From assembly GCF_900112865.1 (NCBI RefSeq), contig NZ_FONH01000022.1, positions 1 through 41,953 on the forward strand: a DNA stretch of 41,953 nt, read 5' to 3'. Made by a program: the position numbers and the translations under genes. Below are positions 9,002 through 30,079 of the stretch, piece by piece. This DNA comes from Dyella marensis (GTDB lineage: Bacteria; Pseudomonadota; Gammaproteobacteria; Xanthomonadales; Rhodanobacteraceae). Each line of letters starts with the position of its first letter. Position 1 is the first letter of the stretch. Below the pieces are notes generated by a model. That model was not told the DNA's origin and made no database searches. It worked only from the letters and a program-made list of their open reading frames with translations.

Positions 9002-9147
9002 CACTCATCTCCTTATGAATGGGCGGGAATGCCCGCGATCCGGGCGGCTGCCCGGACCGCGCGGGACGCTAGCACGGGGCCTCGTGAAGGCGCGTGCACG
9101 GCGCCGGACGGATAGCAACCGCGAAGCCGATGGCCATAATGGCGCCC

Positions 9148-13135: not shown

Positions 13136-13938
13136 CCCTGCCGCGATGCACGCCGGGAATCGCCCGCGTCGCCGCCCCGCAATGCATGAAGACTGCCGAT
13201 GGATTCGTGCCGTGGATAATGCACGGTCGCAGGGCGTGTCACCGTGCGAAACACCGACTCCGGCATCACGTAGTAATACCCCAGCTGGATCGCCTTCTCG
13301 ATCAGGTCCTGCTTGGTGACCACGTTGAACTTCTCCTTGAGGAAGGTCACGTACTGCTCGACGGTGCGCGAGGAGATCGACAGGAAATCGCCGATGCGTT
13401 TCGCGGTGGCACCGCGGAGCATGTAGAACAGGACTTCGTACTCGCGCCGCGTGATGTCCAGGTCCGTGTCGCCGCCGGCGATCACATAGCTCACCCCGCC
13501 GGGATGGCTCAGGTCGTTGAAGATGCGCGGGGCGTTGCTGCGGTACGGGCCGAGCAGGCCGGTGTTGAGGGCGGACATGTCGGTCAGGTGGAACAGCACG
13601 CCGCTGGTCTGCGTCTCCTGGTCCAGGAACGGTTTCTTGGTCACCAGGAAGGCGTTGATCCGCGCGCACTTCATCCGATACACGTTGAAGGTGGTCATCG
13701 CGGTCTTGCGCTGCAGGACATACTGGTCCTGCTCGCGGAAAGTCTGCGCATGCACCGCCATTTCGCCCGGCAGGTCGAAATCGGTCAGCCCCGCGATGGA
13801 GTCTTCCGGACGCAGGCCGGCAATGGCCTTGAACTCCTGGTTCGCATGAAGGAACGTCGACTGCTCGTCCTTGCAGCCGCATGCGCCCGGGATCTGGTCG
13901 ATAATGGACGCTAAATTGCTGCTGATGGCCTGCGGCAT
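13132..13938 (-). CDS. PAS-LuxR transcriptional regulator, candidate phenazine-cluster regulator
   Basis: This 268-aa protein has a PAS-like sensor at about residues 5-140 (GCKDEQSTFLHANQEFKAIAG, LTDFDLPGEM). A C-terminal GerE/LuxR helix-turn-helix lies at about 165-230 (LDITRREYEVLFYMLRGATAKRIGDFLSISSRTVEQYVTFLKEKF). There is no acyl-homoserine-lactone binding domain and no receiver Asp, so it is not a quorum-sensing LuxR of the PhzR kind. AAGGAG lies 8 bp before the ATG. The last 40 residues are basic and of low complexity. It is the only regulator next to the phenazine genes, about 0.6 kb from phzNO1, but no binding evidence links them. Its stop codon overlaps that of the GH30 gene. Confidence 0.82.
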   Translation of the reverse strand: MPQAISSNLASIIDQIPGACGCKDEQSTFLHANQEFKAIAGLRPEDSIAGLTDFDLPGEMAVHAQTFREQDQYVLQRKTAMTTFNVYRMKCARINAFLVTKKPFLDQETQTSGVLFHLTDMSALNTGLLGPYRSNAPRIFNDLSHPGGVSYVIAGGDTDLDITRREYEVLFYMLRGATAKRIGDFLSISSRTVEQYVTFLKEKFNVVTKQDLIEKAIQLGYYYVMPESVFRTVTRPATVHYPRHESIGSLHALRGGDAGDSRRASRQG

Positions 13939-13989
13939 GGGTGGCTCCTTCCGTATCGATGGCGTAATTAGATAATCGCCGCGGCCTGC

Positions 13990-14008
13990 ATTTTATTCGG
14001 AATAAAAT
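13990..14008. promoter_or_regulatory. AT-rich inverted repeat upstream of LuxR-type gene
   Basis: ATTTTATT and AATAAAAT form perfect 8-bp arms around CGG, ending 52 bp before the start codon of the minus-strand LuxR-type gene. Its position suits an operator or promoter-overlapping site, possibly autoregulatory. The binding protein is unknown. Confidence 0.5.
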
Positions 14009-14215
14009 ACCTGCCGGTCGTGATCTTCCTTTTCATGGCGCAGCGGTTATACGCGTCAGGAAAGCCTGCGCCTATCTGTCATTTGTATTACGGCCAAATG
14101 CACCAGCACGCGGCCGCCCGAGCTTTGCGCGAAGCCGTTTGCCCGCGGACTGCCGTGCGCAATCGCGAGTACGGACATCGATGTATTTACGCCACGGTTG
14201 GGATCCGGAAGTAAA

Positions 14216-14239
14216 CACGAAACCAGTTTCGGTTTCGTG
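14216..14239. repeat. Stem-loop in intergenic region
   Basis: CACGAAACC pairs perfectly with GGTTTCGTG across a 6-nt loop. No T-run follows on either strand. Function is unknown; it may be a protein-binding site or the remains of a mobile repeat. Confidence 0.5.
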
Positions 14240-14510
14240 ACGCGATTAACCGTTGCCTTGTTGCAAAAATAAGCGCCCGCCTGATTTTTATACGCGTGCA
14301 GCCTTCTCCTCGACGCACTCTTCACGAGCGCGCGTTTACCAGTGAATAACGGCTTGGGCCGCTAATGAATTGGGCGACTATGACTAATGGCGGTGTGAAA
14401 GTGGCGTGTAACGAAGTGATCGACTTCATCGTTCCGGATTCGAATCGATCCAGCTCGCGCAGCGCTCGCCGGCATGCGTCGATCGGGGCGCTGCCGCGCA
14501 AGCTACGCGC

Positions 14511-14550
14511 AAAGAAAAAGGCCATCGCGACGCACGGTCGCGATGGCCTT
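14511..14550 (-). terminator. Rho-independent terminator of phenazine tailoring operon
   Basis: AAGGCCATCGCGAC (14518-14531) and GTCGCGATGGCCTT (14537-14550) form a perfect 14-bp stem with a 5-nt loop. On the minus strand it is followed by TTTTTCTTT. It lies 28 bp past the phzNO1 stop, so it ends the phzM-phzX-phzS-phzNO1 transcript. Confidence 0.93.
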
Positions 14551-14578
14551 CGAGGTCTGCCGTGCGGCTAGGGAACGA

Positions 14579-16246
14579 TCAGGCCAGCCAGGGCGAAGGC
14601 GACAGCACCGCATCGTTCGACGCGGCCAGGATAGTCGCCTCGGCGGGCGCGAACGCATAACCGGCATACCCGTTGGCCGCGATCTCGGCCAGACGTTCCC
14701 GATAAGCCGCCAGCCCGCCGAAGAAGAACAGCACACGGTTCGGCCGGCCGTCGATATTGGCGCCGAAGATCCACGACTTCACCTGCGGGAACAGCGTGTA
14801 GGCCGCCATCTGTTCGCACTGGCCGGTCCAGTCCTGTTCCGCCGCCGAGTCCGTATCGATGACGACCTGGCCGAGCTGTTCGGAGCGATCGATCAGGTGG
14901 GCGATCCAGTCCACCTGCGTCTCGATCGCCGGCGCCAGGTTGCTGAACACGCTGTTCGGCCCCAGCACCATGAACAGGTTGGGGAAGCCATGCACGCTGA
15001 TGCCGAGATAGCTGCACGGGCGCGAGCCCCAATGATCGACCAGCAGGGCGCCGTCGCGGCCGCGGATGGCCATCTCGCGATAACTGCCTTCGACGCACTC
15101 GAAGCCGGTGGCGTAGACCAGCACATCGAGTTCATGCTCCCGTCCGTCCGCGGTACGGACGCCGCGTGCGGTCGCCTCGACGATGGGATTGGCCTTCAGG
15201 TCGACCAGCGCGACATTCGGGCGATTGAAGGTCTCGTAGTAGCCGTCGGCGCAGACCGGGCGCTTGGCATAGGCCTGCGTCGGCGAAAGCCTGGCCGCCG
15301 TCGCCGGGTCCTTGACGATGCCGGCGATCTTGCCGCGGATGAAATCGCAGGCCGCTTCGTTGGCAGCCGGATCGATGGCGATATCGCAGAACGTCCCGAA
15401 CATGAAGCGGAAGCCGTTGCCGGCCTGCCAATGCTCCTCGAACACGCGGTGGCGTTCCTCGGCGGAGACAGACATGGCGGGGATCGCGGCCTCGGCGAAA
15501 CCGCAGGCGATCCGCGTCTGGCGCAGGCGATCCCAGTAGCCGTCGAAGTTCGCGCGGTAATCCTGGATGAATTCCGCCGGTACCTGATCGCTGCCCGCCG
15601 GCACGCAATACTGCGCGGAGCGCTGGAACACGGTCAGGCGACTGGCGACGGCCGCGGCGGCGGGAATGAACTGGACGCCGGTCGAGCCCGTCCCGATCAC
15701 GCCGACCTTCTTGCCCTCCAGCGACAGGTCGTGCGGCCACGCACCCGTGTGCACCTGGCGTCCTTCGAAACGATCGATCCCCGCGATGGCCGGCGCGTTC
15801 AACTTCGACAGCACGCCGACGGAGGCAATCAGGTAACGCGCTTCCACCACGGCACCGTCACTGGTCTGCACGGACCACACGCCGCGCTGCTCGTCGAACG
15901 TCGCCGCGGTGACCCGCGTATCGAACTGGATCGACGGGCGCAATCCGTGCCGGTCCACCACGGCATTCAAATAGGCGAGCATCTGCTCCTGCGACGCATA
16001 CTTCTGCGTCCACGGCCAGCCCTCGAACGTTTCCGGGTCGAACGAATAGCGATAGACGTAGCTTTCCGTATCCGAGCGGGCGCCGGGATAGCGGTTCCAG
16101 AACCAGGTGCCGCCTACGCCCGCGCCCTTCTCGAAGCCGCGCACCTCCAGCTTCAATTCATTGCGCAGCTTGTGCAGCGCATAGATGCCGGCAATGCCGG
16201 CGCCGATCACGATGGCGTCCACTGCAGATTTCTGACGAATGTCCAC
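14579..16246 (-). CDS. phzNO1: Phenazine N-monooxygenase (Baeyer-Villiger-type flavoenzyme)
   Basis: This 555-aa class B flavin monooxygenase has an FAD-binding GAGIAG at residues 15-20 and an NADPH-binding GTGSTG at 185-190. The Baeyer-Villiger fingerprint FEGRQVHTGAWP lies at 160-171. In Lysobacter antibioticus the family member LaPhzNO1 adds oxygen to the ring nitrogens of 1,6-dihydroxyphenazine, giving iodinin-type N-oxides; the same role is inferred here because the gene sits with phzS and phzM in a phenazine cluster. The GTG start at 16246 is fixed by AAGGAGG 7 bp upstream. It is last in the minus-strand operon, 56 bp after phzS, and is followed by a strong terminator. Sequence alone cannot separate N-oxidation from ketone Baeyer-Villiger chemistry. 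Confidence 0.86.
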   Translation of the reverse strand: MDIRQKSAVDAIVIGAGIAGIYALHKLRNELKLEVRGFEKGAGVGGTWFWNRYPGARSDTESYVYRYSFDPETFEGWPWTQKYASQEQMLAYLNAVVDRHGLRPSIQFDTRVTAATFDEQRGVWSVQTSDGAVVEARYLIASVGVLSKLNAPAIAGIDRFEGRQVHTGAWPHDLSLEGKKVGVIGTGSTGVQFIPAAAAVASRLTVFQRSAQYCVPAGSDQVPAEFIQDYRANFDGYWDRLRQTRIACGFAEAAIPAMSVSAEERHRVFEEHWQAGNGFRFMFGTFCDIAIDPAANEAACDFIRGKIAGIVKDPATAARLSPTQAYAKRPVCADGYYETFNRPNVALVDLKANPIVEATARGVRTADGREHELDVLVYATGFECVEGSYREMAIRGRDGALLVDHWGSRPCSYLGISVHGFPNLFMVLGPNSVFSNLAPAIETQVDWIAHLIDRSEQLGQVVIDTDSAAEQDWTGQCEQMAAYTLFPQVKSWIFGANIDGRPNRVLFFFGGLAAYRERLAEIAANGYAGYAFAPAEATILAASNDAVLSPSPWLA

Positions 16247-16302
16247 GACACTACCTCCTTGGAAAAGGCTTTGGCCTTGCGTGCAGCACGGGAGAGGGTT
16301 GC

Positions 16303-17529
16303 CTAGCCGCTGCGAGAGGACTGCTCGGCAACTGCGTTGTAGGTGCGCGTGATGCGCTCGATTTCCGCGGCCTTGTCGGCGCCCGCCGTCGACGCCAGCG
16401 ACCGTTCCGCGGCATCGCGGTCGCGATTGGCCTGGGCGATGTTGCCGGTGGCCGGTTGGCGACGGGTCTCGTAGTCGCGCAAGGCGTCGACCAGGCTGGC
16501 ACTGGCGGCCAGCGTTTCCGCCAGCACGAAGCCGTCGACGATGGCCTGCGAACCGCCGTGCGCACCGACCGGATACATCAGATGCGCGGCATCGCCGAGC
16601 AGGGTCACCCGGCCCTGGCCCCACCATGGCAGGGGCGGGCGATCCACCATGGTCTGCCGCATCACCTTGGCGCTGCCGGCCAGCAGCGCCTGCAGGTCGA
16701 ACGCGCCCATGCTCCAGCCGGCGTACTGGGCACGAATCTCGCGCGGCGAAGCAGGTTCGAGCGATGCCGTGCTCGGCGACGGCGGCAGCAGCTCGTCGGG
16801 AATCATGCAGACCCAGTTGACCAGCGCGCGGCCTTGCCGGGCATGCCGCGCCGAGATGGGATAGGCGATCAGCCGTCGCTTGCTTGGGTCGTTAGCGACG
16901 ATCATGGTTTCGCCATCGAAGAAGGACGGCAGCTCCGTCACTCCGCGGAACATCTGCAGGCCGCCGGAGCGCACATCCATGGCGCCCGGGTGCAGCTGCC
17001 GGCGCACGTTCGAATGGATGCCATCCGCGCCGATCAGGATGTCGCCGGAGATCTCTTCGACCCCAGTGCTCAGCGCGGACGCCAGCCGCACCGTCACGCC
17101 GCTGCCCCAGTCGTGAAACGCGATCACGCGTGCTCCGCCGATCACGCTTTCCGGACCGAGGCGGTCCCTTACCGCATACAACAGCATCGCCTGCAGGTCG
17201 CCGCGATGCAGCGAGTACTGCGGGAAGCGATGCCCCGCCGCGGTACCGCGCGGCTCGCTGCGATGTTGCCGCCCGGCCTCGTCGAGGTAGGCGATGGCGC
17301 TCGTGCGGATGCCGCTGCGCTCGAAGTCCTCGCCCAGCCCGACCAGGCTGAGTTCCGCCACCGCCGCCGGTTGCACATTGATGCCGACCCCGACGCGCTC
17401 GATGGCCGGCGCGGATTCCAGCAGCACCACGTTGCGAAAGCCATTCGCGTGCAGGGCCAGCGCACAGGCGAGGCCGCCGATGCCCGCCCCGGCGATGAGG
17501 ATCCTCGGTTGATACCCGGATGAGTTCAT
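16303..17529 (-). CDS. phzS: FAD-dependent phenazine hydroxylase, PhzS-like
   Basis: This 408-aa class A flavoprotein monooxygenase has GAGIGG at residues 14-19, the DG motif GADGIHSNVR at 167-176 and the GD motif LGDAAHLMYPVGAHGGSQAI at 311-330. All are laid out as in Pseudomonas PhzS (about 400 aa). PhzS-type enzymes replace a ring carboxylate by hydroxyl with NADH and O2. In a 1,6-dicarboxylate pathway this should produce 1,6-dihydroxyphenazine. The ATG at 17529 begins just before the nucleotide-binding strand; an upstream extension of 7 residues is possible. A very strong hairpin separates it from phzX upstream. Confidence 0.88.
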   Translation of the reverse strand: MNSSGYQPRILIAGAGIGGLACALALHANGFRNVVLLESAPAIERVGVGINVQPAAVAELSLVGLGEDFERSGIRTSAIAYLDEAGRQHRSEPRGTAAGHRFPQYSLHRGDLQAMLLYAVRDRLGPESVIGGARVIAFHDWGSGVTVRLASALSTGVEEISGDILIGADGIHSNVRRQLHPGAMDVRSGGLQMFRGVTELPSFFDGETMIVANDPSKRRLIAYPISARHARQGRALVNWVCMIPDELLPPSPSTASLEPASPREIRAQYAGWSMGAFDLQALLAGSAKVMRQTMVDRPPLPWWGQGRVTLLGDAAHLMYPVGAHGGSQAIVDGFVLAETLAASASLVDALRDYETRRQPATGNIAQANRDRDAAERSLASTAGADKAAEIERITRTYNAVAEQSSRSG

Positions 17530-17573
17530 GCGGACTCTCTTCGATGGCAAGGGGCGGGAGGCGGCGCACCGGT

Positions 17574-17615
17574 CCGGCGGACACCGAAGCAGGACGGCGC
17601 TTCGGTGTCCGCCGG
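17574..17615 (-). promoter_or_regulatory. Intercistronic 17-bp hairpin between phzX and phzS
   Basis: CCGGCGGACACCGAAGC and GCTTCGGTGTCCGCCGG form a perfect 17-bp stem with an 8-nt loop. It begins 8 bp past the phzX stop and ends 44 bp before the phzS start. There is no T-run on the minus strand. In the mRNA it would be very stable and could protect the upstream message, pause ribosomes or RNA polymerase, or separate expression levels of the two halves of the operon. Confidence 0.7.
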
Positions 17616-17623
17616 CAGCGCGG

Positions 17624-17953
17624 TCAGGCCGTGTGGATGGACGACACGGTGAACACGTTCGGCGTGGCCTTGGCCAGTTCCGCCATGCGCTTGGCGAACG
17701 GCGCCGCGTTGGGGTCTTCGCGGGTGGCCTTGACGTCGTCCAGCGACTTCCACTGCGCGTAGTTGACGACGCGGGTGCCGTCCTTGCTGGCCAGGATGCT
17801 GGCGGAGATGAAGCCCGGGCGCTTGCTGATCACCTTCTCGGCGCCTTCGTTCAGCACGTCGATCAGCTGCTGCTGCTTCTCCGGCTCCACGTCGAAGACG
17901 CTGATGAAGGTGACGGTCTCGTCGGCGCGAATGACGGCTTGCTTCTTGCTCAT
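17624..17953 (-). CDS. phzX: Small antibiotic-biosynthesis-monooxygenase (ABM) domain protein, PhzX-like
   Basis: This 109-aa protein has the ABM ferredoxin-like fold pattern: VTFISVFDVEPEKQQQLIDVL, GFISASILASKDGTRVVNYAQWKSLDDVKA, and a C-terminal helix and strand (AELAKATPNVFTVSSIHTA). ABM proteins are cofactor-free oxygenases or heme/quinone-binding relatives acting as dimers. A small monooxygenase gene also occurs in the Lysobacter myxin cluster, hence the symbol, used tentatively. Its role in phenazine tailoring is not established. It lies 205 bp downstream of phzM, with a hairpin in its leader and another after its stop, so its expression may be tuned separately. AGGA lies about 7 bp before the ATG. 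Confidence 0.75.
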   Translation of the reverse strand: MSKKQAVIRADETVTFISVFDVEPEKQQQLIDVLNEGAEKVISKRPGFISASILASKDGTRVVNYAQWKSLDDVKATREDPNAAPFAKRMAELAKATPNVFTVSSIHTA

Positions 17954-17991
17954 GATGGATTCCTTGAGGAACGGTTGGATGCAGCGAGGGA

Positions 17992-18017
17992 GCCCGGCAG
18001 GTCGTTCGATGCCGGGC
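17992..18017 (-). promoter_or_regulatory. Stem-loop in phzX leader
   Basis: GCCCGGCA and TGCCGGGC are perfect 8-bp arms with a 10-nt loop, 38 bp before the phzX start on the minus strand. It lies in the 205-bp phzM-phzX gap, which is long for an operon. It may affect translation or mark a secondary promoter region; nothing more can be said. Confidence 0.45.
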
Positions 18018-18158
18018 GTCAGCGACGGTAGCGATCGGTGGCGCGAAGCACATCGGTAATTTCTACGGACTCGTCGTGTCGCCGAATTTGTCCGGCGCAA
18101 TCACTGCACCGGCGCGTTGACGGCACGACGACATCGCCTGTGAGTTGCGAAGGAGCGA

Positions 18159-19205
18159 TCAGACCGGCACCGCTTCGACGATGCTCATGCCGGTGGACGT
18201 CGGGACGATCCGCTGCAGCTTGAAGCCGGACGCGGCGAACAGCTCGCGGAACTCGTTGGCCGTACGCTCGCGCGCACCGAGCAGCACCGCCATGTGCAGG
18301 TCCAGCCACTTGCCGAAGAACGGCGCCTCACCTTCCGGCAGCACCAGCTCGACCACCAGCAGGCGGCCGTTCGGCGCGATGCCGCGGCGGATGTTTTTCA
18401 GGATTGTCACGCTGCGCTCCTCGTCCCAGTCGTGCAGCAGCAGCGACAGGATGTAGGCATCGCCGCCGGACGGCACGGAGACGAAGAAATCGCCACCCTC
18501 GGCAAGACAACGGCCGCCGAGCCCCGCCGCCTGGATGCGCGCCTTCGCCGCCTCCGCCACATGCGGCTGGTCGAACAGGATGCCGCGCAGGTGCGGATAG
18601 CGGGCCAGCAGCTTCAGCAGCATCGGGCCGTAGCCGGCGCCGACATCGATCACCGTGCCGAACGGGGTGAAGTCGTAGGCGTCGACCACGGCACCGGCCA
18701 CTTCCTTGGTGTAGCCGGCCTGCGCTTCGTTGAAGACGCGGTCCGCTTCCGGATGCTCGGCCAGGTAGCCGAAGTAGGTCTTGCCGAATTCCTTCTCGAA
18801 GGCGATCTCGCCGGTCTTGACGTTGTGCAGCACATCGGACCAGGCGCGGTACTGCTCTTCGCCGTGCATGATCGCCTGCGGTCGCATGCTGTTGGGCAGG
18901 TCCGAGCGCAGCAGGTCGGCCAGCGGCGTCAGGCCGTAGCTGTCCTTGCCGTGCGTGGTGAAGATGCCGACGCTGCACAGCGCGCGCAACACACGGTTGA
19001 GCAGGTCCGGCTGGCTGCCCGAGGCGCGCGCCAGTTCATCGACATGCCGCGGGCCGTCGGCGACGAGGTCCGCGATGCCGAGCTTGGCGGCGACGTAGAT
19101 GGACTGCGTCAACCAGTATCCGGTGATCATCTGCAGCAGCTGGTAATGCGGCGGAACCTCGGCGACAGCGTGTTCGTCGCGCACGGCTTCGGCTTGCGTG
19201 GACAT
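18159..19205 (-). CDS. phzM: SAM-dependent phenazine O-methyltransferase, PhzM-like
   Basis: This 348-aa class I methyltransferase has an N-terminal winged-helix dimerisation domain (residues 20-105) and a Rossmann domain with the SAM loop DVGAGYG at 187-193. The catalytic His258 of LLLHDWDEE is typical of O-methyltransferases. Because phzS and phzNO1 are present, methylation of a phenolic oxygen (iodinin to myxin) is more likely than the N-methylation of phenazine-1-carboxylate done by Pseudomonas PhzM. GGAG lies 6 bp before the ATG. It is the first gene of the minus-strand operon, divergent from phzC across 201 bp. Confidence 0.88.
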   Translation of the reverse strand: MSTQAEAVRDEHAVAEVPPHYQLLQMITGYWLTQSIYVAAKLGIADLVADGPRHVDELARASGSQPDLLNRVLRALCSVGIFTTHGKDSYGLTPLADLLRSDLPNSMRPQAIMHGEEQYRAWSDVLHNVKTGEIAFEKEFGKTYFGYLAEHPEADRVFNEAQAGYTKEVAGAVVDAYDFTPFGTVIDVGAGYGPMLLKLLARYPHLRGILFDQPHVAEAAKARIQAAGLGGRCLAEGGDFFVSVPSGGDAYILSLLLHDWDEERSVTILKNIRRGIAPNGRLLVVELVLPEGEAPFFGKWLDLHMAVLLGARERTANEFRELFAASGFKLQRIVPTSTGMSIVEAVPV

Positions 19206-19406
19206 GTGGCGCTCCTTGTTTTGAATGGGCGATGGCGTGAGCCAGCTGCGACAGCTGGCGGGCGCAACGTAATGCACATGGCGCCGCTGCGGTTACGGGT
19301 TTTCTACGGTTCTTTGCGCGGATGGGTTTTGTTAGCTTGCCCGCTCGCTGATGCAAGGCTTCACCACGCCGCAAGTCCATGCCCGTCGAACACGGAGGTC
19401 GGTGAG
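19206..19406. promoter_or_regulatory. Divergent promoter region phzM / phzC
   Basis: These 201 bp must hold the promoters for both arms of the cluster. The clearest element is GCCAGCTG-CGA-CAGCTGGC at 19241-19259, with perfect 8-bp arms, 35-53 bp before phzM. A T-rich stretch (GTTTTCTACGGTTCTTTGCGCGGATGGGTTTTG) at about 19300-19331 lies nearer phzC. I could not identify convincing -35/-10 pairs. Confidence 0.6.
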
Positions 19407-20825
19407 ATGAACAGTCCACAAGGCAGCATGCGCGAGAACGGAAGCTGGACGCCGGCTTCATGGCGTTTGCGCGAGGCGCAGCAGCAGCCGTGCTATGACG
19501 ATCGCGCGCAGTTGGAAAACGTCGCGCGCCGGATTGGCAAGCTTCCGCCGCTGGTAACCTCCGGCGAGATCCAGGAACTCAAGCGCGCCTTGGCGGATGC
19601 GCAGGAAGGGCGCCGTTTTCTCCTGCACGGCGGCGATTGCGCGGAGAGCTTCGGCGACTGCGATGCGGACACCATCGTCAATCGCCTGAAGGTGCTGTTC
19701 CAGATGAGCCTGATCCTCGGCCATGGACTCAAGCAGCCGGTGATCCGCGTGGGCCGCTTCGCGGGGCAGTACGCCAAGCCGCGTTCGAGCGACCGGGAAA
19801 CCGTGGGCGGCGAGACGCTGCCGAGCTTCCGCGGCGATATCGTCAATGCGGCTGCGTTCGATGCGGCGGCGCGCCGGCCGGATCCCGAGCGGATGTTCCA
19901 GGCCTATGCGTTCTCCGCGCTGACGCTCAATTTCACGCGCGCGCTGTTCGAAGGCGGCTTCGGCGATCTGCGCCATCCGGAGTACTGGCAGCTCGACTGG
20001 ATCGACCAGTCGCCGCGTGCGATCGAGTACCGCAGGGAAGTCGAGGAGATCGCCAACTCGTGGCGGTTCCTGCATACGCTGGGCGGACAGGTCGGCACCG
20101 AGCGCGTCAGCGCCGGGTTCTACACCTCGCACGAGGCCTTGCTGCTGCCGTTCGAAGAGGCGGTGACGCGCCGCGTGCCGCATCGCCGCGGCTGGTTCAA
20201 TCTCTCCACGCATCTGCCGTGGATCGGCATGCGCACCAGCGACATCGACGGCGCGCATATCGAGTACTTCCGCGGCCTGCAGAATCCCGTCGCAATGAAG
20301 GTGGGTCCTTCGACCAGGCCGGCGGATCTGCTGCGCCTGATCGAAGTGCTCAACCCGCACGAAGAGCCGGGCCGCATGACGCTGATCACCCGCATGGGTT
20401 GCAAGCACATCGCTGAAGCGCTGCCGCCCTTGCTCGCCGCGGTGCGCCGCGCCGGCCGGCATGTGCTGTGGGTGGTCGACCCGATGCACGGCAATACCGA
20501 GACCACGCCGACCGGCATCAAGACCCGGCACTTCGACAATATCCGCTCCGAGCTCGAAGCCGCGTTCCAGATCCATGGCGCCGAGGGCACGCGGCTTGGC
20601 GGCGTGCACCTGGAAATGACCGGCGAGGATGTCACCGAATGTCTCGGCGGTGCGCGCAGCCTGCAGGAGCAGGATCTGTCGCGTGCCTACAAGACCACGG
20701 TCGATCCGCGCCTCAACTACGAGCAGGCAATGGAGCTGGCGATGCTGATCACCAAGGTCGCCCGCGCGGCGCCGAAAGTGACCGGGCGCGCCGCTGCCGG
20801 CCCCCGGCCCGTCGCTGTCATCTGA
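19407..20825 (+). CDS. phzC: Class II DAHP synthase of the phenazine pathway
   Basis: This 472-aa enzyme condenses phosphoenolpyruvate and erythrose-4-phosphate to DAHP, feeding the shikimate pathway to chorismate. Plant-type (class II) features are FLLHGGDCAESF, QPVIRVGRFAGQYAKPRS, GFYTSHEALLLPFEEA, MKVGPSTRP, RMGCKHIAEALP, WVVDPMHGNTE and GVHLEMTGEDVTECLGG. PhzC enzymes are usually less feedback-inhibited than housekeeping DAHP synthases; that is family knowledge and was not read here. GGAGG lies 8 bp before the ATG. It is the first gene of the plus-strand operon, with phzD 37 bp downstream. Confidence 0.94.
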   Translation: MNSPQGSMRENGSWTPASWRLREAQQQPCYDDRAQLENVARRIGKLPPLVTSGEIQELKRALADAQEGRRFLLHGGDCAESFGDCDADTIVNRLKVLFQMSLILGHGLKQPVIRVGRFAGQYAKPRSSDRETVGGETLPSFRGDIVNAAAFDAAARRPDPERMFQAYAFSALTLNFTRALFEGGFGDLRHPEYWQLDWIDQSPRAIEYRREVEEIANSWRFLHTLGGQVGTERVSAGFYTSHEALLLPFEEAVTRRVPHRRGWFNLSTHLPWIGMRTSDIDGAHIEYFRGLQNPVAMKVGPSTRPADLLRLIEVLNPHEEPGRMTLITRMGCKHIAEALPPLLAAVRRAGRHVLWVVDPMHGNTETTPTGIKTRHFDNIRSELEAAFQIHGAEGTRLGGVHLEMTGEDVTECLGGARSLQEQDLSRAYKTTVDPRLNYEQAMELAMLITKVARAAPKVTGRAAAGPRPVAVI

Positions 20826-20862
20826 ACCGGCCCATCCCATCCACTTGAGGTTTGCACACGCC

Positions 20863-21489
20863 ATGACCGGGATTCCCGCGATCAGCGCCTATACCCTGCC
20901 CGCGTCCGGGCAGCTGCCGCGGAACATCCCGCGCTGGACCATCGATCCGGCGCGCGCGGTGTTCCTGATCCACGACATGCAGCGCTATTTCCTGCGGCCG
21001 TTGCGCGAGGCCGGGCTGGATGCGCCGCTGATCGACAACCTGCGCGCCATCCGCGACTACGCGCTCGACCACGACATGCAGGTGGCCTATACGGCGCAGC
21101 CGGGCGGCATGAGCCGCGACGAGCGCGGCCTGCTGCGCGACTTCTGGGGCGATGGCATGCAGGTGGCGCCGGAGGATCGCGCCGTGATCGAGGAGCTTGC
21201 GCCGGAAGACCGTGACTGGGTGTTCAAGAAGTGGCGCTACAGCGCGTTCTGGCGCTCCGATCTGCAGGCGCGCATGCGTGCGCACGGGCGCGACCAGCTG
21301 GTCATCGGCGGCGTCTATGCGCATATCGGCATCCTGACCACCGCACTGGAATCGTTCTCGCACGACATCGAGACCTTCGTCGTGGCCGACGCCACCGCCG
21401 ACTTCTCGCTGGAGCGGCACCTGATGGCGCTGGAGCACGCGGCGCGCTGCTGCGCCGTGGTCCTCACCACCGCGGAGATCGTGCAATGA
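20863..21489 (+). CDS. phzD: Isochorismatase-type PhzD
   Basis: This 208-aa enzyme hydrolyses the vinyl ether of 2-amino-2-desoxyisochorismate to trans-2,3-dihydro-3-hydroxyanthranilate (DHHA) and pyruvate. Its N-terminus MTGIPAISAYTLP and overall pattern match PhzD closely. The catalytic acid is Asp38 in LIHDMQRYFLRPL, and the essential lysine lies in FKKWRYSAFW (Lys123). The substrate loop GGVYAHIGILTTALESF is also present. A TTG 18 bp upstream would add six residues, but the ATG matches the family start. Its TGA overlaps the phzE start (ATGA), so the two are translationally coupled. Confidence 0.95.
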   Translation: MTGIPAISAYTLPASGQLPRNIPRWTIDPARAVFLIHDMQRYFLRPLREAGLDAPLIDNLRAIRDYALDHDMQVAYTAQPGGMSRDERGLLRDFWGDGMQVAPEDRAVIEELAPEDRDWVFKKWRYSAFWRSDLQARMRAHGRDQLVIGGVYAHIGILTTALESFSHDIETFVVADATADFSLERHLMALEHAARCCAVVLTTAEIVQ

Positions 21490-23345
21490 GCCTGCTCGAG
21501 CGGATCGTCAGCGGCCAGCTGCAGGACGCCGCCTTTGCGCTGATCGTGCGCGATCACGGCAGCGGCCCGCGCCTGCTGGAGGTCTTCGCCGGCAAGGCGC
21601 GCCGGTGCGAGTCCTTCGTCGACCTGCCGGATACCGGCAGTGCCGGGGAAGGCGTGCTGGTGCTCATCCCCTATGCGCAGCTGCGCGAGCGTGGCTTCGC
21701 CTGCATCGACGACGGCGAGCGGCTGTGCGCGATCGAGATCCAGGAGCGCGAGACGCACGTGCTGGACGATGTACTCGCCAGCTTGCCCGAGGCCGCGCTG
21801 CACCTCTGCGAAGGTGCGTTCGACATGGAGGACGAAGCCTACGAGGAGGCCGTCCGCCGCGTCATCGCCGACGAGATCGGCAGCGGCGAAGGGGCGAACT
21901 TCGTGCTGAAGCGGACCTATCGGGCGCGGCTGCACGACTACTCGCTGACCACGGCGTTGGCTGGCTTCCGCCGCCTGGCCGTGCAGGAATCCGGTGCCTA
22001 CTGGACCTTCCTGGTGCATACCGGCCAGCGCAGCTTTATCGGCGCCAGCCCGGAGCGGCATGTCAGCGTCGAGGACGGCGTCGCCACCATGAACCCCATC
22101 AGCGGCACCTATCGCTATCCGTCGACCGGGCCCACCCTCGACGGCGTGCTGGACTTCCTCACCAACGAGAAGGAAGTCGACGAGCTCTACATGGTGGTCG
22201 ACGAAGAGCTCAAGATGATGGCGCACTTCTGCCCCGCCGGCGGCACCGTGCGCGGGCCGTACCTGCGAGAGATGTCGCGGCTGGCGCATACCGAGTACTA
22301 CATCGAGGGACGCACCCAGGCCGAGGCGCGCATCGTGCTGCGGCAGACATTGTTCGCGCCGACGGTGACCGGCAGCCCGATCGAGAACGCCTGCCGGGTG
22401 ATCGCGCGGCAGGAGCGCGAGGGGCGCGGTTTCTATGCCGGTGTCATCGCCCTGATCGGCAACGACGCCGCGGGCGGCGAACGGCTCGACTCCGCCATCC
22501 TGATCCGTACCGCGGAGATCGCGGCCGATGGCGCGATGAAGATCGGCGTCGGCTCGACCATCGTGCGGCATTCGCAGCCGCATGCCGAAGCGGAGGAGAC
22601 ACGCGCCAAGGCCAGGGCCTTGCTGGCGGCGCTCGGCGTGCAGGCCACGCGGAGCTTCGCCGGCGTGCCGGCGGTGCAGGCGGCGCTGGGCAGGCGCAAC
22701 AGTGACGTGGCCAACTTCTGGTTGACCGACAGCAGCAAGCGGATCTGCGTCGACCCGTCGCTGCGCGGGCGACGGGCGCTGATCATCGATGCCGAAGATG
22801 CGTTCACCGCGATGCTGGCCCAGCAGCTGGAGGCCATCGGGCTCGAGGTGACGATCAAGAGCTGCACGGATCCGGATCTGTTCGACAGCGACTGCGATGT
22901 CGCGGTGCTGGGGCCCGGGCCCGGCGATCCGCGCGACCACCGCGACCGGCGGGTGGCCAGCCTGCGCCAGGCGATGAGCGAGCTGCTCGCGCGCCGCAAG
23001 GCTTTCCTCGCGGTGTGCCTCAGCCACCAGATCCTGTGCCTGGAGCTGGGCCTGGACCTGGTGCCGCGCGCCGAGCCGAACCAGGGCGTGCAGCGCGAGA
23101 TCGACCTGTTCGGCAGCCGCGAGTGGGTCGGCTTCTACAACTCGTTCGTGGCCAAGTGCGAGGCGAGCGCGATCACCGTCAACGGCACTGGCCATGTCGA
23201 GGTCAGCCGTGACCTGGCATCCAACGAAGTGCACGCCCTGCGCGGCGACCGCTTCGCCTCCATCCAGTTCCACGCCGAATCGCTGCTGACGCGGCGCGGC
23301 GTGGACATCATCGCGTCCAACGTCAAGAGAGTGCTCTCGTCATGA
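21486..23345 (+). CDS. phzE: PhzE, 2-amino-2-desoxyisochorismate synthase
   Basis: This 619-aa fusion works on chorismate plus glutamine. The chorismate-utilising (MST) domain fills residues 1 to about 420, with ATMNPISGTYRYP, DEELKMMAHFC and TGSPIENACRVIARQE. It includes GRGFYAGVIALIG, where anthranilate-synthase relatives carry their active site. A class I glutamine amidotransferase domain follows at about 425-619, with the nucleophile Cys511 in FLAVCLSHQILCLELGL and the His-Glu pair in IQFHAESLLTRRG. The one-chain order synthase-amidotransferase is characteristic of PhzE. ATGA overlaps join it to both phzD before and the 121-aa gene after. Confidence 0.95.
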   Translation: MSLLERIVSGQLQDAAFALIVRDHGSGPRLLEVFAGKARRCESFVDLPDTGSAGEGVLVLIPYAQLRERGFACIDDGERLCAIEIQERETHVLDDVLASLPEAALHLCEGAFDMEDEAYEEAVRRVIADEIGSGEGANFVLKRTYRARLHDYSLTTALAGFRRLAVQESGAYWTFLVHTGQRSFIGASPERHVSVEDGVATMNPISGTYRYPSTGPTLDGVLDFLTNEKEVDELYMVVDEELKMMAHFCPAGGTVRGPYLREMSRLAHTEYYIEGRTQAEARIVLRQTLFAPTVTGSPIENACRVIARQEREGRGFYAGVIALIGNDAAGGERLDSAILIRTAEIAADGAMKIGVGSTIVRHSQPHAEAEETRAKARALLAALGVQATRSFAGVPAVQAALGRRNSDVANFWLTDSSKRICVDPSLRGRRALIIDAEDAFTAMLAQQLEAIGLEVTIKSCTDPDLFDSDCDVAVLGPGPGDPRDHRDRRVASLRQAMSELLARRKAFLAVCLSHQILCLELGLDLVPRAEPNQGVQREIDLFGSREWVGFYNSFVAKCEASAITVNGTGHVEVSRDLASNEVHALRGDRFASIQFHAESLLTRRGVDIIASNVKRVLSS

Positions 23346-23707
23346 TCGCTACGATTAGTTGGTGGAATCTCGAACGCTCGGCGCAGACGATCGAATCGCT
23401 GCGCAGCTATCTGCACGGCGAAGGTGTCGCGCCGTGGGAGACGATCGCCGGCATGCGGATGAAATTCTGGATGTCCGATCCGGCCAACAACCTGTGGGGC
23501 GCGGTGGTGCTGTGGGAACACCACGAGGCGATGAGCCAGTCGCTGCCGCCCAATCGCGCGACCGAGCTGATCGGCTATCCGCCGACCTGGCGCTCCAGTT
23601 TCGATGTCGAGGCGCTGATCGACCAAGGGCTGCCGACAGCATGGTTCGGCATCGGCGCGCCGGCGCCGGGCCATGCGCCGGTCGGCTTTCCGCAGGGAGG
23701 GCCGTGA
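23342..23707 (+). CDS. Uncharacterised 121-aa protein inside the phz operon
   Basis: This protein starts in an ATGA overlap with the phzE stop and ends 3 bp before phzG, so it is clearly a member of the operon. It is not PhzA/B. Its sequence (ISWWNLERSAQTIESLRSYL, MRMKFWMSDPANNLWGAVVL, LPPNRATELIGYPPTWRSSF) suggests a small alpha/beta ferredoxin-like fold, related to putative YdhR/ABM-type mono-oxygenase families, with a Pro/Gly-rich tail. I do not recognise a named phenazine gene. Roles to consider are assisting spontaneous oxidation of the tricyclic intermediate, a tailoring step, or binding a pathway intermediate. Confidence 0.7.
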   Translation: MIATISWWNLERSAQTIESLRSYLHGEGVAPWETIAGMRMKFWMSDPANNLWGAVVLWEHHEAMSQSLPPNRATELIGYPPTWRSSFDVEALIDQGLPTAWFGIGAPAPGHAPVGFPQGGP

Positions 23708-23710
23708 GCC

Positions 23711-24340
23711 ATGGCCGAGTATGAAGTCGCCACGGTGGCGGTGCGCGAGTCGAGCCTCTTCGGTGCGCCGCCGGCCGATCCGATGGGCGCCATCCGTGCC
23801 TGGTTCGACGAGGCGCGCGAGCTGGGCGTGCCGGAGTGCGGCGCGATGGCGCTGGCCACGGCCGACGCGCAGGGTCGCTCGTCGGCGCGCATGGTGCACG
23901 TGATCGAGGTGCGGCCGGATGCGCTGATCTTCACCACGCACCGGCATAGCCAGAAGGGACGCGAGATCGACGAGACGCATTGGTCCTCCGGCGTGCTGTA
24001 TTGGCGCGAGACCAAGCAGCAGATCACGGTGGCCGGTCCCACGCGGCTGGTGTCGGCCGAGGTCTCCGATGCGCTGTGGGGCCGGCGGCCGCTCACCACC
24101 AATGCGATGTCGTTCGTGTCGCGGCAGAGCGCCGCGCTGGACGACGAGGCCGCGCTGCGCGACGAAGCGAATGCGCTGCTGGCCGCCTCGCTGGGCCTGC
24201 CGCGGCCCGATGGCTGGGTCGGCTACGCCATCTATCCGGAGAACATCGAGTTCTGGCACGCCGCAGCGGATCGCCTGCACCAGCGCCTGCGCTACGACCG
24301 CGCCGGGCAGGGCTGGCAGTGGCGGAGGCTGCAGCCTTGA
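23711..24340 (+). CDS. phzG: PhzG, FMN-dependent oxidase of dihydrophenazine intermediates
   Basis: This 209-aa protein belongs to the pyridoxamine-5'-phosphate oxidase fold. Typical stretches are CGAMALATADAQGRSSARMVHVIEV (FMN-binding strands), FTTHRHSQKGREI, GVLYWRETKQQITVAGPTRLVS and the C-terminal GYAIYPENIEFWHAAADRLHQRLRY. The last corresponds to the PNPOx C-terminal domain. PhzG oxidises hexahydro- or tetrahydrophenazine carboxylates toward PDC/PCA. It is placed between the unknown 121-aa gene and phzF, with spacings of 3 and 5 bp. Confidence 0.93.
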   Translation: MAEYEVATVAVRESSLFGAPPADPMGAIRAWFDEARELGVPECGAMALATADAQGRSSARMVHVIEVRPDALIFTTHRHSQKGREIDETHWSSGVLYWRETKQQITVAGPTRLVSAEVSDALWGRRPLTTNAMSFVSRQSAALDDEAALRDEANALLAASLGLPRPDGWVGYAIYPENIEFWHAAADRLHQRLRYDRAGQGWQWRRLQP

Positions 24341-24345
24341 AAGCG

Positions 24346-25194
24346 ATGCCTTATGCCGTGGCGGATGTGTTCACCGAGAACCCGCTGGAAGGGAATCCGG
24401 TCGCCGTGTTTTTCGATGCGCAGGGCCTGGAAGCGCAGGACATGCAGCGGATCGCGCGGGAACTCAACCTGTCGGAGACCACGTTCGTGTTTCCTCCGCC
24501 GGCCGATGCCGACGTGCACGTGCGCATCTTCACGCCGGTCAACGAGCTGCCGTTTGCCGGGCATCCGACGCTGGGCACGGCCATCGTGCTGGGCCAGCGC
24601 GGGCACCGCGGCACGCTGCGCATGGCGACGGCGATGGGGACGATCCCGTTCGAGCTGGAGCGCGACCGCGAAGGCGTGGTGCGCGCGGCCTCGATGCGGC
24701 AGCCGGTGCCGACCTGGTCGCCGTACGAGCATGCCGAGGTGCTGATCGACGGGCTCGGCCTCGAACGCTCGACCTTGCCGGTCGAGGTGTATCGCAACGG
24801 GCCCCGGCATGTATTCGTCGGCCTGCCGACGATCGCGGCGCTGTCGGCGGTGAAGCCGGACCTGCGGGTGCTGGCGACGCTGCCCGACGTGGCGGTCAAC
24901 TGCTTCGCCGGCGAAGGGCGGCATTGGCGGATGCGGATGTTCTCGCCCGCCTATGGCGTTGCCGAAGATGCGGCGACCGGCTCCGCGGCGGGGCCCTTGG
25001 CATTGCACCTGATCCGCCACGGGCTGCTGCGCTTCGGCACCGGCATCGACATTCTGCAGGGCGTCGAGATGGGCCGGCCTTCGCTGATGCGGGCGACGGT
25101 CCAAGGGTCGATCGATGCGATCGGGCCGATCGAGGTCTCCGGTTCGGCCACGGTGGTGGCACGCGGGGAGCTGCTGCGCTGGAAGGCTCAATAG
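24346..25194 (+). CDS. phzF: PhzF, DHHA isomerase
   Basis: This 282-aa enzyme isomerises DHHA to the ketone that dimerises. It has the diaminopimelate-epimerase-like two-domain fold: VADVFTENPLEGNPVAVFFDA, catalytic Glu in LNLSETTFVF (about residue 44), FTPVNELPFAGHPTLGTA, YRNGPRHVFVGLP and VAEDAATGSAAGPLALHL. The ATG at 24346 fits the family N-terminus. A TTG at 24337 overlaps the phzG stop and has GGAGG 8 bp upstream, so initiation three codons earlier with tight coupling is possible. A dispersed repeat starts 3 bp after the stop. Confidence 0.95.
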   Translation: MPYAVADVFTENPLEGNPVAVFFDAQGLEAQDMQRIARELNLSETTFVFPPPADADVHVRIFTPVNELPFAGHPTLGTAIVLGQRGHRGTLRMATAMGTIPFELERDREGVVRAASMRQPVPTWSPYEHAEVLIDGLGLERSTLPVEVYRNGPRHVFVGLPTIAALSAVKPDLRVLATLPDVAVNCFAGEGRHWRMRMFSPAYGVAEDAATGSAAGPLALHLIRHGLLRFGTGIDILQGVEMGRPSLMRATVQGSIDAIGPIEVSGSATVVARGELLRWKAQ

Positions 25195-25196
25195 AG

Positions 25197-25314
25197 CCCC
25201 TCTCCCTCCGGGAGAGGGGTTGGGGTGAGGGTGCGGGCGGAGCGCAAGGGCGGCGTGCACCGCTTCGCCCGGACCCTCATCCGCCTGCCGGCACCTTCTC
25301 CCGGAGGGAGAAGG
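25197..25314. repeat. Dispersed CCCCTCTCCC...GGGAGAAGG repeat between phzF and phzB
   Basis: The element has two strong hairpins, CCCCTCTCCC/GGGAGAGGGG (25197-25219) and CCTTCTCCC/GGGAGAAGG (25294-25314), joined by about 75 bp of GC-rich sequence. It belongs to the GGTTGGGGTGAGGGT class of intergenic repeats common in proteobacteria. The second hairpin is followed by ATTCTTTTTC, so it can act as a terminator for the phzC-F transcript. Confidence 0.8.
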
Positions 25315-25323
25315 ATTCTTTTT
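25294..25323 (+). terminator. Terminator-like hairpin between phzF and phzB
   Basis: A 9-bp perfect stem with a GGA loop is followed by ATTCTTTTT on the plus strand. It is the right end of the dispersed repeat. It leaves only about 30 bp before phzB, so a promoter for phzB would have to overlap it, or phzB depends on read-through. Confidence 0.6.
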
Positions 25324-25355
25324 CGGAAGTAGATGCATTGATGAGAGGAGGTCCC

Positions 25356-25844
25356 ATGCCCCACACCAACCAGGCTCCACCCTTCACCACTGACCACGAA
25401 CTGCGCATCCTCCACCGCCGCGTCATCGAGGACTACTTCAGCCGCCGCGGCGAATCTCGCCTCACCCGCTACCAGCTGTTCACCGAAGACGGCTCCGGCG
25501 GCCTGTGGACCAACGACACCGGCGGCCCGATCGCCGCCCACGGCCACGACGCCCTGAAAGCCCACGGCGCCTGGTCGCTCCAATGCTTCCCCGACTGGCA
25601 ATGGCTCAACGTGGAGATCTTCGAAACCCAGGACCCGAACCGTTTCTGGGTCGAATGCGACGGCGAGGGCCAGATCCTGTTCCCCGGCTACCCGCCGGGC
25701 ATCTACCGCAACCACTTCATCCATTCGTTCCTGATGGAAAACGGCAGGATCAAGCAGGGCCGCGAGTTCATGAACCCCTACGAGCAGATGCGGGCCCTGG
25801 GGATCCCGTTTCCGGCCATCAAGCGGGAGGGAATCCCAGCCTGA
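25356..25844 (+). CDS. phzB: PhzB (PhzA/B family), dicarboxy-tricycle condensation protein
   Basis: This 162-aa member of the SnoaL/ketosteroid-isomerase-like fold speeds the condensation of two PhzF-product molecules to hexahydrophenazine-1,6-dicarboxylate. The match to PhzA/B is strong along the whole length: LTRYQLFTEDGSGGLWTND, CFPDWQWLNVEIFETQDPN, FWVECDGEGQILFPGYPPG, NHFIHSFLMENGRIKQGREFMNPYEQMRALGIPFPAIKREGIP. The conserved His (LKAHGAWSL) and Glu (GREFMN) are present. GAGAGGAGG precedes the ATG; an in-frame ATG 15 bp earlier is less well placed. There is one copy only (no phzA), and it is last rather than first in the operon, behind a repeat element. Confidence 0.95.
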   Translation: MPHTNQAPPFTTDHELRILHRRVIEDYFSRRGESRLTRYQLFTEDGSGGLWTNDTGGPIAAHGHDALKAHGAWSLQCFPDWQWLNVEIFETQDPNRFWVECDGEGQILFPGYPPGIYRNHFIHSFLMENGRIKQGREFMNPYEQMRALGIPFPAIKREGIPA

Positions 25845-26351: not shown

Positions 26352-26504
26352 TCAGGCCTGTTCGTCGGGCGCTGTTTTTGCGTTGGCGGGCTCAGGCTTG
26401 GCCTCGTCGCGCGACGCCATCTTCTTGGCCTGCTTGCTGTCCTGCTTCTTCTTCTTGGCAAGTTCGCGCTGGCGTTTTTCGAAGGAATAGTTGGTCTTTG
26501 CCAA
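26352..26504 (-). CDS. Small Lys-rich protein of unknown function
   Basis: This 50-aa highly charged protein contains TNYSFEKRQRELAKKKKQDS then KQAKKMASRDEAK. It is similar in style to small basic proteins that start MAKTNYSFEKRQRELAKKKK in many Xanthomonadales and Burkholderiales. The start is probably TTG at 26504, giving (M)AKTNYSF, since no ATG is suitably placed. Function is unknown. Confidence 0.65.
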   Translation of the reverse strand: MAKTNYSFEKRQRELAKKKKQDSKQAKKMASRDEAKPEPANAKTAPDEQA

Positions 26505-26542
26505 GGGATGGTTCCGTGGTGGTGAGGGATCGGTGGTCGACT

Positions 26543-26893
26543 TTACCCGCTGGCAGGGTCGAAAGGCCGTAAAACCTGGGCGGAAGGCTCGTGCCGTGCG
26601 CCGGCGGCATAGAACTCGGCGCGGATGGACCTGCAATACGGACCGTTCATCACGAACCGGCGGCACTCGGAAGGCCGGTTCTCATAGATGCCGCAATTCA
26701 TGCGGGTCCTGTCCAGGGCCACGCACCAGCCGTCTTCGGCATGCTTCATCACACGCAGGCCTTCGGGCGAGATGGCGGTGAGATGCCCCGGCATGGGCTC
26801 TTCCGGCTGCAGCACGACCGTGAGGCGGCAACAGACGGCCTGGCATGCGGAACAGTGTGCTGCGGTGCTGGCGGGCCTGGCTGGCGAACTCAT
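26543..26893 (-). CDS. YkgJ-family Cys-cluster protein (1)
   Basis: This 116-aa protein has the zinc/iron-chelating pattern CSACQAVCCRL near the N-terminus, then WCVALDRTRMNCGIYENRPSECRRF and a late Cys in NGPYCRSIR. These match the YkgJ / UPF0153 cysteine-cluster family of putative metal-binding proteins. The ATG at 26893 is chosen because it precedes the first Cys motif at the same distance as in the paralogue at 27591-27872. The metal and function are unknown. Confidence 0.82.
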   Translation of the reverse strand: MSSPARPASTAAHCSACQAVCCRLTVVLQPEEPMPGHLTAISPEGLRVMKHAEDGWCVALDRTRMNCGIYENRPSECRRFVMNGPYCRSIRAEFYAAGARHEPSAQVLRPFDPASG

Positions 26894-27590: not shown

Positions 27591-27872
27591 GTGAGCGACG
27601 CAGCGCGATGCTCGTCATGCGACGCGGTGTGCTGCCGCCTTACGGTGGTGCTGCAACCGGAGGACAACGTTCCTCCCCACCTGACGACGCACCTGGCGAA
27701 TGGCATGCGCGTCATGCAGCGCGATGAAGAGGGGTGGTGCGTAGCCCTCAACGGCAACCGCATGAATTGCGGTATCTACGAAAGCCGTCCGGGGGAGTGC
27801 CGGCGATTCGTGATGGGAGGGCCGTACTGCAAGTCGGTGCGCGCGGAGTATCGCGAGCGATTCGAGCGCTGA
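27591..27872 (+). CDS. YkgJ-family Cys-cluster protein (2)
   Basis: This 93-aa protein is clearly paralogous to the one at 26543-26893: CSSCDAVCCRLTVVLQPED, WCVALNGNRMNCGIYESRPG and ECRRFVMGGPYCKSVRAEY share most residues with it. The GTG at 27591 gives an N-terminus comparable to the paralogue. ATGs at 27423 and 27453 would add an unlike extension and cannot be excluded. Confidence 0.78.
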   Translation: MSDAARCSSCDAVCCRLTVVLQPEDNVPPHLTTHLANGMRVMQRDEEGWCVALNGNRMNCGIYESRPGECRRFVMGGPYCKSVRAEYRERFER

Positions 27873-27899: not shown

Positions 27900-28274
27900 T
27901 CAATTCTCCGCATCGAACGCAGCTCTCGCCGCATCGATATCCGCCATGTGCTCGAACGCCCAGCTGCCAAGCGCGACCACCGGCGTCGTCAGCGAGATCC
28001 CCAGTGGCGTCAGTTCGTACTGCACATGCGGCGGCATCGCGGCGAAAACCGTCCGCTTGACCAGCCCGTCGCGCTCCAGGCCACGCAGGCACAGCGTCAG
28101 CATGCGCTGCGAAATGCCATTGATGGCGCGCTTGATCTCGCTGAAGCGCCGGGGCTTCTCCGCGAGGAACATGATGATCAGCACGCTCCACTTCTCGCCG
28201 ATCCGGGCGAGCACCTGGCTGACCTTCTGACAGTCGGTGGTTTGGAGGTCGTGGGGGTGATTAGTCACATCCAT
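27900..28274 (-). CDS. HxlR-family transcriptional regulator
   Basis: This 124-aa winged-helix protein has DCQKVSQVLARIGEKWSVLIIMFL, RRFSEIKRAINGISQRMLTLCLRGLERDGLV and RTVFAAMPPHVQYELTPLG, the HxlR/MarR-like core. Cys15 sits just before the first helix, at the position used for quinone/diamide sensing in YodB-type HxlR regulators. It is transcribed divergently from azoR, 94 bp apart, so it probably represses azoR and the genes behind it. Confidence 0.9.
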   Translation of the reverse strand: MDVTNHPHDLQTTDCQKVSQVLARIGEKWSVLIIMFLAEKPRRFSEIKRAINGISQRMLTLCLRGLERDGLVKRTVFAAMPPHVQYELTPLGISLTTPVVALGSWAFEHMADIDAARAAFDAEN

Positions 28275-28368
28275 GATACTTCGGTACCTCTGATGTGCCG
28301 TATTGTGCACGTTTTTGATGATAGTTACATTGGTAGTCCTGGTAACAATTCTATACCGAGGACATGCC
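28275..28368. promoter_or_regulatory. Divergent promoter region hxlR-type gene / azoR
   Basis: The region is AT-richer than its surroundings and contains an inverted repeat GTTAC (28324-28328)...GTAAC (28342-28346), a candidate site for the HxlR-type regulator. GAGG at 28359-28362 serves as the azoR ribosome-binding site. Promoter elements are not clear enough to place. Confidence 0.5.
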
Positions 28369-28977: not shown

Positions 28978-29075
28978 CGCAGCGAACGTATCCAGGGCGC
29001 GCATGCCGCATCGGCCTTCATACGACCACTTCGCCGCTGCGGCGGCGCGCCCTGCCATCCGCGAGTACGACCATC

Positions 29076-29972: not shown

Positions 29973-30079
29973 GGCAGCGGCACTTCGGTGCAGCTGTCCA
30001 ACTTTCGAATCACCACTCACACGTGACATGCCGAAGTCCACAGGGCCGGCAATCCGCACCCGCTTTCCGGATGTTTTCC

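Follow-up and report, generated by a model that had tools for sequence, protein, structure and literature searches.

The window analyzed here, a stretch of 41,953 nucleotides of Dyella marensis DNA, is one whole contig (C44, NZ_FONH01000022.1) of a 5.0 Mb genome split into 44 contigs. It carries a two-operon phenazine N-oxide cluster that, including its regulator, spans positions 13132-25844. The phenazine locus itself consists of 11 genes (14579-25844), identified by means of the open frame list and family searches, and every frame is open (Table 1). The phzC-D-E-X-G-F-B genes are on the forward strand and are divergent from phzM-ABM-phzS-phzNO1 on the reverse strand, with a gene for a PAS/LuxR regulator adjoining. 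A preliminary description of this DNA had listed an intact core set (phzC, D, E, G, F and B) together with phzM, an ABM (antibiotic-biosynthesis-monooxygenase) protein, phzS and a flavoenzyme. All of these were confirmed as open frames in their expected places, but gene X and the regulator had been overlooked. Gene starts were chosen by us from the listed open frames, and that of phzB (~25356) is approximate.

The nearest named relative of the host is Dyella sp. SG609 (locus L004), which possesses all 11 genes at 82-97% identity. Genome G218 is the same organism, as L004 and the G218 locus L096 were identical at 16,300 of 16,300 overlapping bases. Because G218 belongs to the host genus according to the kinship listing, the host is congeneric with Dyella sp. 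SG609, in the family Rhodanobacteraceae.

Table 1. Features of the phenazine locus and its regulator (window coordinates)
Feature	Position	Strand	Evidence
PAS + LuxR-type (GerE) regulator, candidate phzT	13132-13938	-	PF08448 4.1e-11, PF00196 8.9e-11 on 13132-13992
phzNO1, Baeyer-Villiger-type flavoprotein, putative phenazine N-oxidase	14579-16246	-	FMO-like 7.2e-15, fingerprint, tree
phzS, FAD-dependent hydroxylase	16303-17529	-	NF005720 2.4e-126, 422 bits vs cut-off 400
ABM-type small protein	17624-17953	-	PF03992 2.4e-10
phzM, phenazine O-methyltransferase, putatively iodinin to myxin	18159-19205	-	Methyltransf_2 1.1e-44
Conserved box TTACGNNNTTTNTACGGTT, candidate regulator site, divergent promoter region	19293-19311	+	conservation and place
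phzC, class II DAHP synthase	19407-20825	+	TIGR01358 9.8e-190
phzD, isochorismatase-type hydrolase	20863-21489	+	PF00857 2.3e-35
phzE, chorismate-using amidotransferase-fused synthase	21486-23345	+	PF00425 Chorismate_bind 1.3e-40, PF00117 GATase 2.8e-24
Gene X, NosA-like small protein, 121 aa	23342-23707	+	4za1 NosA E 3.4e-18
phzG, FMN-dependent oxidase	23711-24340	+	NF038138 4e-77, 258.6 bits
phzF, isomerase	24346-25194	+	PF02567 1.1e-72; TIGR00654 PhzF_family 9e-56
phzB, condensing protein of PhzA/B family	25356-25844	+	PF03284 PHZA_PHZB 2.3e-72 on 25326-25844

Occurrence and conservation of the cluster

Occurrence of phenazine clusters was assessed with the PF03284 profile for PhzA/B, which gave no signal in any of 14 control genomes. 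Of 233 genomes of the host family, 5 (including that of the window) scored above the cut-off, as did 2 of the 6 genomes of the host genus. In two further samples, matches were found in 2 of 395 genomes from the family of G243 and in 4 of 398 from the order. Outside Lysobacter, such clusters had been expected to be uncommon in Xanthomonadales, and the two family counts bear this out. One of the four genomes from the order, G114, scored 25 bits, 1 bit above the cut-off; it was rejected, with none of the phz genes of the window matched in the 14 kb examined.

In total, seven Xanthomonadales phz clusters were collected. The complete set with NO1, S, ABM, M and regulator was present in five of them (the window, SG609, G364, G704 and G568), and the gene order and regulator of the window were kept in the other four. 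The G473 cluster is interrupted by a contig end beyond phzM, and in G772 NO1, S, ABM and M were not found in the 20 kb examined.

Over 335 residues, PhzM of G568 (L098) shows 100% identity with the structure 6c5b, which we take to be LaPhzM of Lysobacter antibioticus OH13, and G568 therefore stands in here for the characterized Lysobacter cluster. Core and modifying genes, their order, the divergent layout, the adjacent regulator and gene X are all as in the window, with protein identities that reach 77% (PhzB). The L. antibioticus myxin genes are given in the available passages of PMC7927275 as a core of six (LaPhzB-G) plus LaPhzNO1, LaPhzS, LaPhzM and LaPhzX, and no NosA-like gene is named among these ten. 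The ABM protein of the window, 70-97% identical to its copies in the other four complete clusters, is probably the counterpart of LaPhzX.

A second known system comes from the same genus. Dar et al. (2020) compared the phz clusters of L. antibioticus and Dyella japonica, and the adjacent conserved regulator is named phzT in the available text (PMC7591250). In D. japonica UNC79MFTsu3.2, phenazine-1,6-dicarboxylate (PDC), myxin and reduced myxin were reported by liquid chromatography-mass spectrometry; deletion of phzA or phzT left the strain colorless and the three phenazines undetected, and the pigment was induced under phosphate limitation (PMC7591250). As described, this cluster resembles the window in its L. 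antibioticus-like gene content and in the regulator beside the operon. Because of this report, a myxin-type cluster is already known in Dyella (PMC7591250), and the window adds another genome to the myxin-type producers by gene content, in a system that is rare and patchy in the sampled Xanthomonadales. In the open-access library searched, nothing was found on Rhodanobacteraceae together with phenazine and phz. Outside the phylum, homologs of PhzS, ABM and NO1 lie beside the core on Rhodococcus plasmid pLP156 (L116; 48, 53 and 54% identity to the window, respectively), but no phzM match was found in the 20 kb examined, and an X domain is fused to PhzF.

The PAS/LuxR regulator lies beside all five complete clusters, the copies in L004, L095, L098 and L103 being 88, 56, 57 and 73% identical. 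The gene in the window is the obvious candidate for phzT. In addition, the box TTACGNNNTTTNTACGGTT was common to the five phzM-phzC intergenic regions, being exact in four and one base longer in SG609 (L004). Only one site, an exact one, was detected in the window's genome at up to 2 mismatches, and a reversed-pattern control gave 3 matches. As the control matches more often, the argument for the box rests on its conservation and place and not on rarity. The regulator likely activates both divergent operons, and may do so by binding this box.

PhzNO1 and the probable product

Comparison of the flavoenzyme with ketone Baeyer-Villiger enzymes had been set as a test that could refute the iodinin/myxin-type proposal. 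Type I Baeyer-Villiger enzymes are characterized by the fingerprint FxGxxxHxxxWP, and PhzNO1 carries it, unaltered, as FEGRQVHTGAWP starting at residue 160. The nearest solved structures are cyclohexanone monooxygenases, the best being that of Thermocrispum municipale (5m0z, E 2.5e-209), and the best NCBIfam model is PtlE, presumably also a Baeyer-Villiger enzyme, although the score of 273 bits is far from the cut-off of 1100. These features would suit a ketone monooxygenase located beside the cluster by chance, in which case the product would be 1,6-dihydroxyphenazine or a methyl ether without N-oxides. LaPhzNO1 is likewise called Baeyer-Villiger-like (PMC7927275).

The two possibilities were compared by phylogenetic analysis. 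Eighty-four loci matched the flavoenzyme, and a quick tree was built from 81 of them and the window (82 rows), without two short matches (L080 and L081) and the second SG609 locus (L096, same genome as L004) but with the very long row L083. A second, careful tree had 60 rows and a midpoint root; it included the Rhodococcus enzyme but neither L083 nor 22 other rows, which were the long L074 and redundant rows from marine and other Alphaproteobacteria. The two trees were concordant. In the careful tree, ten rows were separated from the other 50 across a branch supported at 100/98, and eight of the ten are phz-linked: the window, SG609, G364, G568, G704, two Actinomadura and one Rhodococcus; the other two are from Streptomyces. 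The solved T. municipale enzyme (L013) sits among the 50 opposite rows. PhzNO1 is 62.5% identical to its G568 copy, and, under thresholds chosen by us, phz-linked and cyclohexanone-type enzymes are told apart by eight residues. The ketone monooxygenase explanation, raised by the PDB search, was dropped after both trees, and we consider it very improbable, since the flavoenzyme neighbors phz genes in all five complete clusters, falls with Actinomadura and Rhodococcus enzymes that are likewise phz-linked and away from the other 50 rows, and N-oxides are made by D. japonica (PMC7591250).

A myxin/iodinin-type cluster would carry the full core (phzB, C, D, E, F and G), phzS and a LaPhzM-type O-methyltransferase, and all of these are present in the window. 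PhzM and PhzS could also be imagined to act as in Pseudomonas aeruginosa, giving pyocyanin-type N-methylated phenazines: PhzM is homologous to 2ip2 (173 bits, E 5.7e-50), and PhzS matched 2rgj (E 7.3e-112) and 3c96 (E 6.6e-112) in the PDB search. However, PhzM is much nearer to 6c5b (70% identity, 533 bits, E 1.8e-159), NO1 is present in the cluster, and the products named for D. japonica are PDC, myxin and reduced myxin (PMC7591250), so that a pyocyanin-type product is hardly conceivable here.

The grouping of PhzNO1, together with a gene set, order and regulator that match those of G568, supports the iodinin/myxin-type reading of the preliminary description, and we conclude that the locus is very probably a Dyella gene cluster for a myxin-type phenazine di-N-oxide, and that it appears intact. 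Several observations, in addition to the cyclohexanone monooxygenase match, weigh on the other side. PhzS is merely 49% identical to that of G568, the lowest value among the proteins compared, and PhzG scored 258.6 bits, 11.4 under the NCBIfam cut-off of 270. The Rhodococcus flavoenzyme is on a long branch (1.08), and the two Streptomyces rows in the PhzNO1 group showed no phz genes in the stretch examined, so the eight phz-linked enzymes need two changes on the tree. For this strain the case is made from genes, and production has been demonstrated for others such as D. japonica UNC79MFTsu3.2. The two Streptomyces flavoenzymes (L005 10001-11590 and L006 9388-10983) may act on another substrate.

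Genes, gene order, homology and the phylogeny of PhzNO1 are the basis of this assignment, and we infer the chemical steps, product and regulation from published work with L. antibioticus and D. japonica. PhzC would supply the shikimate pathway, and PhzE, PhzD, PhzF, PhzB and PhzG would convert chorismate to PDC. PhzS would then swap the carboxyls for hydroxyls, PhzNO1 would oxidize the ring nitrogens to give iodinin, and PhzM would O-methylate iodinin to myxin, while the ABM protein may serve to protect the producing cell. Myxin, and not iodinin alone, is the probable end product, because D. japonica UNC79MFTsu3.2 makes myxin (PMC7591250).

Gene X, a NosA-like gene in phenazine clusters

Gene X and the end of phzE share four bases. 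At E 0.001 the X protein matched no model in Pfam or NCBIfam, and even at 0.1 NCBIfam gave none; a match to ydhR (E 0.063) was under the Pfam cut-off. X is homologous over residues 3-105 to NosA, the terminal amide synthase of nosiheptide (PDB 4za1). In the available passages of the NosA structure paper, Lys49 and Glu101 are described as essential residues, the second of which has a proposed role in activating water for attack on an imine (PMC4525488). Counterparts of both residues and of Arg29 are retained in the window protein. Among ten X proteins and NosA, the catalytic Lys was conserved in all 11 and the Glu in 8 (Asp, His or Ala in the rest), and the X domain of Rhodococcus has Lys and His at these positions. 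However, NosA has 151 residues whereas separate X proteins have 112-124, so that X proteins have at best a shorter C-terminal loop. The alignment stops at NosA residue 117, within the loop 112-151 (above all 120-140) that is needed for activity, and the X tails differ from one another. In contrast to NosA, gene X is placed among phenazine genes; the word phenazine does not occur in the NosA structure paper (PMC4525488). On these sequence comparisons, gene X is not assigned as a terminal amide synthase.

Gene X was present in all seven Xanthomonadales phz clusters, always after phzE; in G772, which belongs to the host family, it forms the N-terminal part of a single open frame with PhzF. When 398 genomes sampled from the phylum were searched, X was matched in four: that of the window, G989 (3.8e-21), where the match lies in a phz cluster, and two genomes with weak scores (1.4e-4 and 4.5e-4). 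Among 72,556 plasmid records, X was matched directly in seven, from Burkholderia ubonensis, Rhizobium leguminosarum (four), Escherichia coli and Streptomyces camelliae. It directly follows phzE on the Burkholderia, E. coli and one of the Rhizobium plasmids, the other three Rhizobium records having X and phzB equally spaced as in the first, and in S. camelliae it is ~57-64 kb away from the phz genes. Six Rhodococcus plasmid records have the X domain annotated inside PhzF. In one of these, the domain scored 70.5 bits against an X profile built without that record, with PhzF following from residue 106.

By organism, the 13 X-bearing plasmid records belong to groups represented among 24 PhzB plasmid records, ten of which were opened; in the remaining records of this set, from Streptomyces, Pantoea, Embleya and Xenorhabdus, X was unmatched. 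Overall, 20 phz clusters (G218 counted once) comprised ten with a separate X, two with a fused X and eight with no adjacent X, which counts against a universal role. This set is biased, as 4 of the 12 clusters with X (Burkholderia, Rhizobium, E. coli and G989) entered via X searches. The two Actinomadura clusters with NO1 had no X. Phenazines of Pantoea and Xenorhabdus derive from the dicarboxylate, and both have one phzB and no X. These cases weaken the notion that X is diagnostic of dicarboxylate production or of a single phzB.

Two of the plasmid clusters have features of their own. On E. coli O170:H18 plasmid NZ_CP076707.1 (L112 5135-17419), the X-type gene of the phenazine cluster overlaps phzF. 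In the B. ubonensis cluster (L109 9364-29600), ketosynthase, carrier-protein and HAD-IIIC genes are interspersed among the phz genes, and the product may be an acylated phenazine.

The PhzF product AOCHC is described as a highly reactive aminoketone, two molecules of which condense to a hexahydrophenazine dicarboxylate that is oxidized to di- or monocarboxylate phenazines (PMC5524880, available text). X could be a NosA-like imine/enamine-handling protein acting on or beside PhzF and receiving AOCHC, where it would either promote productive AOCHC pairing by PhzB or hydrolyze off-pathway imines. Action at this step is the simplest proposal, because the family is proposed to handle enamine/imine tautomers and fusions of X with PhzF are seen in two separate lineages. 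We give participation of X in core phenazine assembly an even chance. A bystander, e.g., a protein that shares this broad fold and serves self-protection outside core assembly, is also possible, at somewhat under even chance: heme-degrading enzymes and HapK are among the proteins related in fold to NosA (PMC4525488), the sub-threshold match was to ydhR, and clusters without adjacent X include those of Pantoea and Xenorhabdus. On the other hand, the in-frame fusions to PhzF in Rhodococcus and G772, and the location of X immediately after phzE in distant genera, argue for a role within assembly. Gene X is the useful new lead from this locus. AOCHC pairing after PhzF is usually credited to PhzA/B alone, and a dedicated helper at this step, occurring in two phyla and joined to PhzF in two lineages, would, if true, be a pathway component that had been missed.

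Flanking regions

The left flank of the cluster (GH30 and a SARP-like regulator) is common to the window and SG609. On the right, no SG609 match was found in the stretches examined except for a dispersed repeat. In G310, a congener without PhzA/B, sequence similar to window positions 26385-26863 (inverted) and 27618-27856 occurs ~3 kb past GH30, an arrangement that is weakly suggestive of gain or loss of the cluster at this site. The dispersed repeat (~127 bases, 25194-25320) is located between phzF and phzB; 85 matches were listed in the genome, including reverse-strand matches to the same places, with 40 of 252 candidates scored. SG609 has partial repeat matches between phzF and phzB (L096 4476-4629) and two copies ~7 kb beyond phzB (L121).

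Two further features were observed near the cluster. At 27900-31210, 2 kb from phzB, an HxlR regulator, a divergent flavodoxin-fold protein, a pirin and a pyridine-nucleotide-dependent flavoprotein form a set that resembles redox-stress genes; it was excluded as part of the cluster, as none of it was matched around the SG609 cluster (L096, L121). Upstream of GH30, a large regulator with Trans_reg_C and TPR domains (9094-11538) is 72% identical in SG609.

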